Shown: positions 57 through 3,795 of the stretch, in pieces
How the letters are laid out: the number at the start of each line of letters is the position of its first letter
Numbering within the stretch: the first letter of the stretch is position 1
Assembly (NCBI GenBank): GCA_018221105.1
Contig: JAAOYA010000011.1
Span: 1 to 42,423, forward strand
Reading direction: 5' to 3'
DNA: 42,423 nt
Origin: Candidatus Woesearchaeota archaeon
GTDB lineage: Archaea > Nanobdellota > Nanobdellia > Woesearchaeales > JAAOYA01
The notes under the pieces: generated by a model
What the model was told of the DNA's origin: nothing
Seen by the model: only the letters and a program-made list of their open reading frames with translations
The model's database searches: none
Position numbers and translations under genes: made by a program

Positions 57-938
57 CTATTTAAGTTTTTTGTAGTCTGCAATGATTTTGCATGCGTTGC
101 ACTTGGCGTGTCTTGATGGTTGATTGCAAGTTTTGCATTTCGCTACTTTTTTACTAGTTGAAAATTGTTTTTTTAGTTTTGGCAATTGCTTTAAATAATT
201 ATTAATCAATCTTTCTTTAGTGCCTGGCAGTTCTTGTTCTAAATTGTTTAATGCTGTTTGTATTGTTCTTCTAAACCCGCTTTCTGAGTATGGGCATATT
301 GTAAAGCCTGTGATGAATTTTTTGTAGAATGCGTATGTTGCTACTTGTTTTTCAGTCATTAAGTATAATGGTTTTATTCTTGTGACAAATAGTTCGCTGT
401 CAACTAGTCCTGTTGTGGGTCCTAATCGTGCGTTTTGTTCTACGCTTGAGCGTAGTAGGTTCATTAGTACTGCTTGTGCTTCATCGTCTAAGTTGTGTCC
501 TGTTGCTAGTTTGTTTTTAGAATATTTGTTTAGTAAATATCTGCGTAGTACTCCGCATACTGTGCAAGAGTTAGCGCCTGTTTTTTTTATGTATTTATCC
601 AGTGTAAAGCCGAATTCTTTTTTGAAAGTTTTGATCTCATAATCAATGTTGTTTTGTTCACAGAATTTTTGCAGGTCTTTGATTGTTTTTGCGCGATAAC
701 CACTGATTCCTTCATCAATCAAAAGCGCTGTTGGCGTTGCATATTTTGATAAAATGTATAGTGTGCTTAGTGAGTCTTTTCCGCCGCTGGCCGCTACTGT
801 TACTGGCTCGTTTTTTTTTAGTAGTTTGTATTTTTTTATTGTATGCATTACTTTTTTTTCAAAGTATTTGATAAAATGATCAGAGCATAGTACTGGATTA
901 GTACTAATTGCTTTTCTCATGCATTTTGCGCATTTCAT
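57..938 (-). CDS. ncsA: tRNA 2-thiolation enzyme, NcsA/TtuA family
   Basis: This 293-residue protein is an ATP-dependent tRNA-uridine 2-thiolase of the TtuA/CTU1 group. It adenylates the target uridine and inserts sulfur supplied by a ubiquitin-like carrier. The N-terminal zinc finger (C3, C6, C18, H21) is followed by the PP-loop SGGKDS at 51-56. The three cysteines that ligate the catalytic [4Fe-4S] cluster in TtuA are present: C125 and C128 (CTVC), and C215 in CPYSE. TGHNLDD follows at 146-152, and a second zinc knuckle (C268, C271, C280, C283) closes the protein. It is the last complete gene of the operon, starting 1 nt after the stop of the Gly-Gly carrier that probably donates its sulfur. 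All catalytic features look intact. Confidence 0.93.
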   Translation of the reverse strand: MKCAKCMRKAISTNPVLCSDHFIKYFEKKVMHTIKKYKLLKKNEPVTVAASGGKDSLSTLYILSKYATPTALLIDEGISGYRAKTIKDLQKFCEQNNIDYEIKTFKKEFGFTLDKYIKKTGANSCTVCGVLRRYLLNKYSKNKLATGHNLDDEAQAVLMNLLRSSVEQNARLGPTTGLVDSELFVTRIKPLYLMTEKQVATYAFYKKFITGFTICPYSESGFRRTIQTALNNLEQELPGTKERLINNYLKQLPKLKKQFSTSKKVAKCKTCNQPSRHAKCNACKIIADYKKLK

Positions 939-939
939 T

Positions 940-1134
940 TTATCCCCCGCTTATTACTGCTAGAATTCTAATATTATCAGTGTTTTTTACTGTGTCTGCT
1001 TCTGTTAATAATTCGCTGCCGCGCGCTACGATTACTGTTTGCGGGTTAATCTTTAATTTTTTTAATAGTCCTAGGACTGTTCCAGAATATTTTGTTTGAA
1101 TGTCTTTTTCCTCTAATTCTATGTATACTTTCAT
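940..1134 (-). CDS. Ubiquitin-like sulfur carrier (TtuB/SAMP/MoaD-ThiS fold)
   Basis: This 64-residue protein has the beta-grasp pattern of ThiS/MoaD carriers and ends exactly in Gly-Gly. The exposed C-terminal glycine is the residue that becomes a thiocarboxylate in TtuB and archaeal SAMPs. Its start overlaps the stop of the ThiI-like gene as ATGA, and its stop lies 1 nt before the thiolase start. This position makes it the likely sulfur donor for the NcsA/TtuA-type enzyme. Members of this superfamily also serve molybdopterin or thiamin synthesis, but no gene of those pathways is present here. No E1-like activating enzyme (MoeB/ThiF/UbaA) is in the window, so it must be encoded elsewhere or replaced. 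Confidence 0.85.
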   Translation of the reverse strand: MKVYIELEEKDIQTKYSGTVLGLLKKLKINPQTVIVARGSELLTEADTVKNTDNIRILAVISGG

Positions 1135-1922
1135 AGTCCCACCAACGGTCGCAATAGTGATAATTCAACAGGCAGTTTCTTTAAAGTTTCTAGTTTTTGA
1201 TTTGTTGTTATTGTTGCAATATTTTTTTGTTTTGCTAATTGTTCTAATTCTTGATAATCTTTCACTATTTGTAATTCAAGTTTTTGTCCTGCGCTAAAAG
1301 GTTCTAAAGCGCTAATATCGATTTTTTTAAATGCTACTGGCAGTATTGAACATCCTCGCTTCATCACTTGTTTTGCTGCTTCAAGTGATTGTTCGTCTTC
1401 AATTAATACTATTGTTTTGCCCTCGATTCCTAGTGGTAGTCCTCCAAGGCCTGGTATTTTTTTACTGCTAACGTGCACACTGCCTTGTAATACTTCAATG
1501 TTTATTTCAATGTCTGGCTTTTTTATTTGAACTTTTTTATTAGTTTTTTCTACAATGAATGCTCCGACTATTTTTTCAATTTCGGGACTTGTCAAACTGA
1601 AGGTTTTATCGTTTCGCGAAGCTTTAATTTTGAAAGTTTCAAAATTAATATTTTTGATACTTTCAAATGCTACACTCTTTATTTTTTCTATGTCTTGGAT
1701 TGTTTTGATTGTTGGCTCTATTGATGTTACGCCAGCAATTTTTGTAAGAAACCCAATATCTGAAGTTGTTTCTAATAGTATTCTACCACGGGTTTGACGC
1801 AGTGTGTGTTCTACTTTATTTTTTTTTAGTGCTTCTTTTATATTATTATAGAGTCGTCTTTCAAACTCGCGACGATTGGCGCCTTTTAGGCTTATCTCCC
1901 AGTATTTTAGAACGTATAACAT
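1131..1922 (-). CDS. ThiI-like THUMP protein with a degenerate PP-loop domain
   Basis: This protein (263 residues) has the layout of 4-thiouridine synthase ThiI: an N-terminal ferredoxin-like domain with the W-E-I-S-L-K-G motif, a THUMP domain (about 60-165), and the G-G-L-P-L-G linker that leads into the PP-loop domain. There the family motif SGGxDS is replaced by an acidic stretch (EDEQSL), although the following MKRG is kept. The downstream TTGESLGQ signature is reduced to TTNQKL, and the C-terminal half is shortened, so ATP-dependent catalysis is not expected. The reading frame is clean and overlaps the next gene as ATGA, which argues against a pseudogene. I chose the ATG at 1922 because the conserved N-terminus begins there and it sits just after the IscU stop; an in-frame ATG at 1943 would add 7 residues. 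Its role is probably tRNA binding rather than catalysis. Confidence 0.8.
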   Translation of the reverse strand: MLYVLKYWEISLKGANRREFERRLYNNIKEALKKNKVEHTLRQTRGRILLETTSDIGFLTKIAGVTSIEPTIKTIQDIEKIKSVAFESIKNINFETFKIKASRNDKTFSLTSPEIEKIVGAFIVEKTNKKVQIKKPDIEINIEVLQGSVHVSSKKIPGLGGLPLGIEGKTIVLIEDEQSLEAAKQVMKRGCSILPVAFKKIDISALEPFSAGQKLELQIVKDYQELEQLAKQKNIATITTNQKLETLKKLPVELSLLRPLVGL

Positions 1923-1923
1923 T

Positions 1924-2292
1924 TTATTGTTTTTTTGATTCATAGTTTTTTATTGCTTCTTGCAGTGCGTCAGCCGCTAAGTTCGAACAGTGTTCTTTTA
2001 GTGGTGGCAAGCCTCCTAGTTCTTTACTTATTGTGTCACGAGTGATTTTTTTTGCCTCTGTTAGTGTTTTGCCTTTTGCTATTTCTGTGACCATTGAACT
2101 TGTGGCTATTGCTGCAGCACAGCCCATTGTTTCAAAGCCAATATTAACTATCGCATCATTTTCTACTTTTATGTAAACATACATTACATCACCACATGAC
2201 GCATTGCCTACTTGTCCTACTGCGTCATAATGCTCTAGTTTTCCTAAGTTTTTTGGAGTTTTGAAATGCTGCATTACTTTTTCACTGTACAT
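1924..2292 (-). CDS. iscU: Fe-S cluster assembly scaffold IscU
   Basis: This 122-residue scaffold builds [2Fe-2S]/[4Fe-4S] clusters from IscS sulfur. The three ligand cysteines of the family are C33 (in ASCGD), C58 (in MGCAA) and C102 (in EHCSNL). The D35 that makes clusters labile and transferable is also present. Length and N-terminal sequence are typical of IscU/NifU-N. A strong GGAGGT ribosome-binding site lies 7 nt before the ATG, inside the iscS coding region, so the two genes are translationally coupled. Its clusters could mature the thiolase encoded three genes downstream. Confidence 0.93.
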   Translation of the reverse strand: MYSEKVMQHFKTPKNLGKLEHYDAVGQVGNASCGDVMYVYIKVENDAIVNIGFETMGCAAAIATSSMVTEIAKGKTLTEAKKITRDTISKELGGLPPLKEHCSNLAADALQEAIKNYESKKQ

Positions 2293-3442
2293 TGTTAGTA
2301 CCTCCTTTAAACGGACTCATTTTTCTAAGAGTTTCTACCGTGGTCTTGATTTTTTCTATTGTATAATCAATTTCTTCTTTTGTTGTATAGTTTGATAGAG
2401 ATATCCTTATTGAACCATGGCTCTCTTCTGGTTTCAAGCCCAATGCTAGTAGTGTTTTGCTCGGCTCTAGTTTTTTTGATGAGCAAGCACTGCCAGTGCT
2501 CACATAAATGCCTTCTTGATCTAAATATAATAATATTGCTTCGCCTTCAATAAAATCAAATCGCGCGTTTACATTATTGCAAAGTCGATCATTTCCGATT
2601 GCCCCATTAATGTATGTGTTATCAATTTTTAACAACTCACTAATCAGATAATCGCGCAGCTCAACCATTTTTTTTATGTCATCAATTGTTGTTATCTCGA
2701 TTGCTTTTGCAAAGCCTGCAATGCTTGGCGTGTTATGAGTTGCAGCACGCAATCCTTTTTCTTGTGCTCCGCCTGTAATTATCGGTTTTAATTGCACGCC
2801 GTTTTTTACATATAGTGCTCCTATTCCTTTTGGGCCGTGTAATTTGTGTGCGCTAAATGCTGCCAGGCTGATATTTTGTTCTGCTACGTTTATTGGTGTT
2901 TTAGTGTAGCTTTGTACTGCGTCAGTATGAAATAAAACATTTTTTTCTTTGCAGACTTGACCTATTTGTTGTAAGTTTTGTATGGTGCCTATTTCGTTGT
3001 TCGCGTGTATTATGCTAACAACTAAAGTATCTTCTCTTATGCTTTTTTGTAATTGTTCTAAATCTACAAATCCTTGATTGTCAACATCTAAATAATTGAT
3101 TGTATAATCTTGTTGTTCTAATTCACTACAAGTGTTCAAAACTGATGGATGTTCTATTTTTGTTGTTATAATATGTTTTTTTTGAGGGTTTGCCAAAGCC
3201 AGGCCTCGAAGCGCCAGATTGTTTGATTCGCTGCCACTTGCAGTGAATATTATCTCGTTTGCTTGAGCACCAATACTATCAGCTATTTTTTTGCGTGAAT
3301 CATCAATTATTTTTTTTGCATTCTCGCCTTGTGAGTGTATGCTTGAAGGATTAGCATAATCTTCTAAGCTTATCTTGCTAACTAGTTCGGCTACTTCTGA
3401 TGCTGTTTTTGTTGTTGCAGCGTTATCTAAGTATACTTTCAT
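2282..3442 (-). CDS. iscS: Cysteine desulfurase IscS/NifS
   Basis: This 386-residue PLP enzyme converts cysteine to alanine and a protein-bound persulfide, the sulfur source for the whole operon. The PLP lysine is K200 in SAHKLHGPKG, with partners H98 and D174. The persulfide-forming cysteine is C320 in STGSACSS. The ATG at 3442 overlaps the TGA of the upstream regulator as ATGA and leads straight into the conserved YLDNAATT, so I prefer it to an in-frame start six codons upstream. The C-terminus overlaps iscU. Domain content is complete and nothing is missing. Confidence 0.95.
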   Translation of the reverse strand: MKVYLDNAATTKTASEVAELVSKISLEDYANPSSIHSQGENAKKIIDDSRKKIADSIGAQANEIIFTASGSESNNLALRGLALANPQKKHIITTKIEHPSVLNTCSELEQQDYTINYLDVDNQGFVDLEQLQKSIREDTLVVSIIHANNEIGTIQNLQQIGQVCKEKNVLFHTDAVQSYTKTPINVAEQNISLAAFSAHKLHGPKGIGALYVKNGVQLKPIITGGAQEKGLRAATHNTPSIAGFAKAIEITTIDDIKKMVELRDYLISELLKIDNTYINGAIGNDRLCNNVNARFDFIEGEAILLYLDQEGIYVSTGSACSSKKLEPSKTLLALGLKPEESHGSIRISLSNYTTKEEIDYTIEKIKTTVETLRKMSPFKGGTNNVQ

Positions 3443-3795
3443 GTTATACACACCTTGCAATTATCGGGTAGTATTTTGACGTGCTTTGCGCATAGTTTGC
3501 ATAGTACTTTGTCGTTTTTTGCTTGCGAGCAGAGTTTTTGTATTTCACGTATCATATTTTGAGGTTGTTCTATTATTTTTTTGGCGCTTTGTCGTGCTAA
3601 TGTTTTGGTGTCATCACTTAGTATGTCTGCACTGCTGCGCTTTTTTGATAGGTATTGTGATACTGCACTTTTTGTTAGTCCTAATAGTTCTGCTATCTTG
3701 TTTTGTTTTAGTCCTAATTCTTGCAAATGTATTGCTAATTGTTTTCTTATTGCAGGTAGTACATACCAAACTTCTAGTTCTTGTGGTTGACGCAT
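3439..3795 (-). CDS. HTH regulator with C-terminal cysteine cluster
   Basis: This 118-residue protein is the first gene of the sulfur operon. Residues about 12-55 form an XRE/Cro-type helix-turn-helix, with a recognition helix around TKSAVSQYLSKKR. The C-terminus carries five cysteines: C89, then CKLC at 99-102 and CKVC at 113-116. That pattern can bind a metal ion or an Fe-S cluster. It resembles the predicted archaeal XRE-type regulators found next to sulfur and tRNA-thiolation genes. By analogy with bacterial IscR, it may sense Fe-S or sulfur status and repress its own operon; this is inference. A TATA box 20-32 bp upstream implies a leaderless mRNA. Confidence 0.8.
   Translation of the reverse strand: MRQPQELEVWYVLPAIRKQLAIHLQELGLKQNKIAELLGLTKSAVSQYLSKKRSSADILSDDTKTLARQSAKKIIEQPQNMIREIQKLCSQAKNDKVLCKLCAKHVKILPDNCKVCIT

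Follow-up and report, generated by a model that had tools for sequence, protein, structure and literature searches.

What does a ThiI-like protein do once it has kept its tRNA-binding domains and lost its catalytic loop, and what is its place in an operon that encodes a complete tRNA thiolase? The window analysed here, 42,423 nucleotides long, is the entire contig C7 of a Candidatus Woesearchaeota archaeon (genome of 1.15 Mb, 11 contigs, 92% complete), and it encodes such a protein, whose nearest named relatives are mostly from Woesearchaeota. On the evidence set out below, this "THUMP half" very likely binds the tRNA for a 4-thiouridine (s4U8) synthetase made of two chains (a split ThiI/TtuI), in which a stand-alone PP-loop protein on contig C3 (the "PP half") is the catalytic chain.

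The locus and its operon

The operon lies on the minus strand and is tightly packed, in the order HTH-IscS-IscU-THUMP-Ubl-TtuA:

57..938, minus strand: TtuA/NcsA-type PP-loop tRNA thiolase with Fe-S and zinc-finger cysteines (NF049949 TtuA 9.3e-55; NF047749 NcsA 1.5e-50)
940..1134, minus strand: ubiquitin-like sulfur carrier (Ubl) of ThiS/SAMP2 type with a C-terminal GG (Pfam ThiS 2e-5, above cut-off; sequence)
1131..1922, minus strand: very likely the THUMP half of a split ThiI, with NFLD ~4-68, THUMP 77-152 and a dead Rossmann-type PP remnant ~165-263
1386..1451, minus strand: linker plus the first part of the PP remnant (GLGGLPLG to VLIEDEQS), site of the lost SGGxDS loop (alignments)
1924..2292, minus strand: IscU/NifU-type Fe-S scaffold (PF01592 1.1e-44; TIGR03419 1.5e-50)
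2282..3442, minus strand: IscS/NifS-type cysteine desulfurase (TIGR03402 1.4e-142; sequence)
3439..3795, minus strand: HTH regulator with a C-terminal CxxC...CxxC (HTH_3 1.5e-5)

The original prediction of a clean frame with ATGA coupling was borne out: the THUMP-half gene is an uninterrupted frame of 263 aa (an alternative in-frame ATG upstream, at 1943, is possible) and overlaps the Ubl gene by ATGA at 1131-1134. A second overlap of this kind joins the HTH gene to iscS at 3439-3442, with the iscS start placed at the ATG at 3442; the ORF program instead gives a TTG at 3460. The Ubl and TtuA genes are separated by 1 nt. The Gly-Gly carrier and the PP-loop thiolase with Fe-S cysteines do adjoin the THUMP half as predicted, since the Ubl (64 aa) ends in ISGG and has a beta-grasp match to PF02597 above the cut-off, while the TtuA-like protein carries SGGKDS, CTVC, CPY and the end zinc-finger cysteines. 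The latter scores below both equivalog cut-offs (NF049949 and NF047749), so that either U54 or U34 may be its target. The E1-like enzyme needed by such a Ubl is encoded elsewhere in the genome, on contig C2 (1.3e-61). The HTH gene is the probable regulator of the operon, and a homologue stands at the head of the same operon in G007 (L037:4072-4434); with its CxxC...CxxC, the protein is a possible Fe-S or sulfur sensor.

A ThiI-like protein without its ATP site

Pfam places both ThiI_fer (2.8e-13) and THUMP (4.1e-13) on the protein, well above their cut-offs, and PF02568, the PP domain, was not reported in the same search. The TIGR00342 profile covers only positions 2-206 of its 373, at 139.5 bits, which is below the 264.5-bit cut-off and sets the protein apart from single-chain ThiI. 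In the alignments, GKTIVLIEDEQSLEAAKQVMKRGC occupies the place of the ThiI segment "GK..LLSGG.DSP.A...MKRG". The third domain thus starts like that of ThiI, yet VLIEDEQSLEAAKQVMKRGC replaces SGGxDSP, and the C-terminal end at LRPLVGL is a real shortening. The loss of SGGxDS and the shortening of the PP domain, with the N-terminal and THUMP domains retained, were therefore read correctly from the start.

The same holds well beyond this genome. None of the 49 degenerate THUMP halves, the window protein included, has a PP-loop or DI-loop motif, so SGGxDS and GQxxSQ do not occur together on any of these chains. Nor do the alignments show other residues forming a replacement ATP site; the PP-loop, Arg264, DI-loop and cysteine regions are altered or deleted. 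The residues for tRNA binding are kept as in full-length ThiI: K13 in 49/49, R17 in 48/49 and R47 in 48/49, the equivalents of K17, R21 and R46 of T. maritima ThiI (PMC4041423). The clean frame and the occurrence of this form in dozens of genomes rule out a pseudogene or an assembly error, and chance is ruled out likewise by a motif missing from all 49 sequences against tRNA-binding residues kept in nearly all.

An AlphaFold model built with 27 aligned sequences (pLDDT 94.5, pTM 0.88) shows the small Rossmann-type third domain well folded. In Foldseek, PH1313 of Pyrococcus horikoshii ranks first over the full length (1vbk_A, E 5.7e-28, TM 0.88), followed by 2C5S and 4KR7. PH1313 is also the best PDB match by sequence (9.3e-31) and has HDELSALA at the equivalent site.

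A stand-alone PP half in the same genome

The missing chemistry is found on contig C3, where L003:1504-2124 encodes a ThiI PP-loop protein that stands alone (206 aa). It matches TIGR00342 over positions 170-368 of 373 (2.8e-56) and the Pfam ThiI domain at 2.4e-56, and it keeps the PP-loop SGGLDSP, the DI-loop GENLGQVASQT and the cysteines of CVFCKR and STGCKALP. The activity of methanogen ThiI depends on an Fe-S cluster bound by these three cysteines (PMC5372739), and the cluster is [4Fe-4S] according to later work as cited in PMC10067955. The CVFC and STGC cysteines of the C3 protein probably hold a cluster, presumably of the same [4Fe-4S] type. A search with the TIGR00342 profile found no full-length ThiI in this 92%-complete genome, so that the second complete ThiI that would have spoken against a split enzyme did not appear. 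A further THUMP gene lies at C4:188565 and is ruled out as a second ThiI, its product being a 361-aa methyltransferase-like (Trm14/Trm11-like) protein.

The PP-loop motif is present in 47/47 PP halves. These fall into two chemistries, with CxxC plus a further Cys (Fe-S type; G004, G025, G029, G038, G041, G044 and G059) or without CxxC (G000, G006, G007 and G012). Directly after the C3 PP half comes a DHH/DHHA1 RecJ-like gene (L003:2121-3167), as it does in G033 and G059.

Co-occurrence of the two halves

The distribution of the halves was followed in 138 genomes of the phylum with a completeness of at least 90%. Both halves are present in 39, the THUMP half only in 1, the PP half only in 6, and full-length ThiI in 28. 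Thus a PP half accompanies the THUMP half in 39 of 40 genomes (Fisher p=8e-27, kinship ignored), and not one of the 138 combines full-length ThiI with either half, a mutual exclusion within the phylum. The order sample gives the same picture, with the PP half in 13/13 genomes that have a clear THUMP half against 3/45 of those without (p=1.8e-10, kinship again ignored). Among the 27 genomes reached through degenerate loci in a genome scan, 22 have the PP half, one has full-length ThiI, and four, which are small genomes, have neither.

Exceptions occur on both sides. In the order and phylum samples, a PP half without a detected THUMP half was seen in G025, G036, G051, G232, G279, G282 and G294. 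Lax-profile searches found no THUMP half in G025, G036 and G051, and no PP half in G063, G064, G076 and G082. Incomplete sequence may explain these seven genomes, or they may be true exceptions, and it is possible that PP-half-only genomes use a different tRNA-binding partner. The two halves lie at separate loci in all DPANN genomes examined and are adjacent in Thermococcus only. In G193, G254, G286 and G287, the full-length ThiI matches lie within longer frames (476-494 aa), which suggests an extra domain.

Repeated origin

A tree of the PP halves, from which L018 was excluded as a probable 5'-truncated full-length gene, does not bring them together: the AU test rejects a single clade (p=0.0016), and the tree requires 5 label changes, of which well supported branches force at least 3. 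The PP halves are placed in a main DPANN clade, a Thermoplasmata clade, G024+G073, Thermococcus, and the L073/L192 pair. Judging from the sequences, the PP half arose several times, yet paired genomes recur. These separate placements answer in part the caveat that kinship was ignored in the co-occurrence p-values.

Most Thermococcus genomes have full-length ThiI, often with an adjoining PP half. Many Thermococcus keep such a PP half beside an intact ThiI (seen at L066, L069, L074, L177 and L183), so the PP half can have another role. In two Thermococcus genomes a degenerate THUMP gene stands in the place of the full-length gene and overlaps the PP-half gene by 4 nt (L073:4809-5741/5738-6334, GTGA; L192:621-1553/28-624). 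In P. horikoshii (G107, with PH1313 at 100% identity), PH1313 is accompanied by one non-adjacent PP half, at L196:7184-7789, and a full-length ThiI is missing.

The adjacent thiolase as a partner

It had been proposed at the outset that recognition and chemistry are on separate chains, with the neighbouring thiolase as the catalytic one. The first part is well supported by the PP half and its 39/40 association; the second is improbable. TtuA/NcsA-type thiolases are found in 51/60 genomes of the order sample, whatever their ThiI state, and they are as frequent with a THUMP half (11/13) as without (38/45; Fisher p=1). Because the THUMP half goes with the PP half while TtuA is present regardless, the catalytic chain is more likely to be the stand-alone protein on C3 than the adjacent TtuA/NcsA. 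Distance matrices of the N half, PP half and TtuA from 10 genomes gave r 0.52 for the PP half and 0.48 for TtuA, which does not separate the partners.

The operon link between the THUMP half and TtuA is nonetheless real in this order, and it is not fully explained. TtuA adjoins the THUMP half in 10/13 genomes there, but full-length ThiI in just 1/12 (p=0.001). The arrangement IscS-IscU-THUMP-TtuA is seen in Woesearchaeota L086, L102, L104 and L127, and in L110 and L117 the THUMP half is also beside TtuA. No such adjacency occurs at the Thermoplasmata, Micrarchaeota/Parvarchaeota and Pyrococcus loci examined, so that the degenerate form does recur beside ncsA in relatives of this order, and not in those other lineages. 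The operon can be read as a shared supply of sulfur and Fe-S clusters, service of the THUMP half to TtuA being a minor possibility.

A THUMP half that presents tRNA both to the PP half (for s4U8) and to the TtuA of the operon (for s2U54 or s2U34) would reconcile the phyletic pattern with the operon link. This is unlikely, as no direct sign of it was seen, N-terminally short TtuA being about equally common with and without a linked THUMP half, and the TtuA link does not extend to other lineages. An N-terminal finger shed by TtuA when a THUMP half adjoins was looked for in the profile start positions, and no association appeared.

More doubtful still is the reading in which the neighbouring TtuA/NcsA receives its tRNA from the THUMP half, while the PP half has no connection with it or serves some other purpose. 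It accounts for the conserved adjacency with its ATGA-type overlaps, for the linked THUMP halves of the Woesearchaeota, and for the scarcity of full-length ThiI beside TtuA. It does not fit the indifference of TtuA to the THUMP half, the lineages without adjacency, or G023 and G033, in which both halves are present and no TtuA was found. Moreover, TtuA has zinc fingers of its own, and the THUMP-NFLD ruler, counted from the CCA end, reaches U8 and is set for neither U54 nor U34 (PMC4041423). In T. kodakarensis, Ubl loss lowers s2U and leaves s4U unaffected (PMC11323500), which fits a Ubl that serves TtuA and not a split ThiI.

Finally, a THUMP half that is decaying or has a regulatory role (e.g., as a tRNA-binding chaperone or competitor), next to a PP half that catalyses alone or perhaps with another THUMP protein, is highly improbable: the six PP-half-only genomes at 90% completeness or more and the Trm14/Trm11-like protein of this genome could be so explained, but the frames are clean, the tRNA-binding residues are conserved over many families, the co-occurrence with the PP half is nearly complete, and the PP remnant is well folded at this pLDDT and not eroding.

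A proposed two-chain s4U8 synthetase

The ThiI of T. maritima is a dimer joined through its PPase domains, in which the tRNA is bound by the NFLD/THUMP of one subunit and its U8 is delivered to the PPase site of the partner subunit (PMC4041423). Recognition and chemistry on one tRNA are thus already on different chains, so that a split with one active site and one tRNA module would make a workable heteromer. In the split ThiI proposed here, the NFLD-THUMP module would grip the acceptor stem and CCA end and present U8. The dead Rossmann-type PP remnant would be retained probably as a docking surface, corresponding to the homodimer face of the PP domains in ordinary ThiI; such a role would explain why a dead domain is kept at all. 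Docked there in a physical complex, the C3 PP half would adenylate U8 and insert the sulfur. The IscS and IscU of the operon would give sulfur and Fe-S clusters, and TtuA with its Ubl would be a second, independent thiolase. The product would be s4U8; s4U occurs in T. kodakarensis tRNA (PMC11323500).

If this is true, many archaea annotated as having "no ThiI" or a "ThiI-like" protein are predicted to make s4U8 by a two-chain enzyme. Nature would also have repeatedly tested the need for the ThiI dimer, since every separation of the chains has left the dead PP domain in place instead of deleting it.

Comparison with known systems

ThiI/TtuI (T. maritima 4KR6/4KR7, B. anthracis 2C5S, M. maripaludis) has the same NFLD, THUMP and PP-loop domains and tRNA-binding residues, and its catalysis across subunits through a PP-domain dimer is what is proposed for the split pair. 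The pair differs in having these domains on two genes, and in the dead, shortened PP domain of the THUMP chain. The closest named model to the C3 PP half is NF006222/PRK08349, a "hypothetical protein" of 198 aa and likewise without THUMP; the C3 protein scores 176 bits, below the 251-bit cut-off, and neither a function nor a partner can be read from the name of the model.

The route from homodimer to heteromer has been described for Ctu1/Ctu2, ADAT2/ADAT3 and the Sen nuclease (PMC10067955), and here it would have been found several times in archaea. The Ctu1/Ctu2 (Ncs6/Ncs2) U34 thiolase has likewise become a catalytic and non-catalytic pair, the latter proposed to orient the tRNA (PMC10067955), although it belongs to the NcsA/TtuA family, has no THUMP and acts on another base. 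In Tan1-Kre33 and THUMPD1-NAT10, a non-catalytic THUMP protein also serves a separate enzyme chain (PMC9957541), but the reaction is C12 acetylation, not thiolation, and there is no dead enzyme remnant.

The arrangement had been put forward as new, which is true only in part. The degenerate fold has been in the PDB since 2005 (PH1313, 1VBK), the stand-alone PP family exists as a model name, and multiple ThiI homologues are known in Pyrococcus. The idea that the THUMP half and PP half are two halves of one enzyme was not found in the open literature, and closed papers could already say so. If correct, it would give a concrete role to the PP-loop family PRK08349 and to PH1313, whose structure, released in 2005, has no assigned activity; a 2023 review terms it "ThiI-like", with a smaller PP domain and unconfirmed activity (PMC9957541).

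PH1313 has the same degenerate architecture over its full length (30% identity to the window protein), with an atrophied PP domain and, as in the present genome, a stand-alone PP half encoded elsewhere. It differs in belonging to another lineage, in lying outside any isc-ttuA operon and in being ~45 residues longer. As it is nested near the full-length ThiI of Thermococcus, it degenerated separately from the window protein. Two other Thermococcaceae, G113 (L191, L194) and G109 (L185, L195), carry a PH1313-type THUMP half together with a second, full-length ThiI paralogue.
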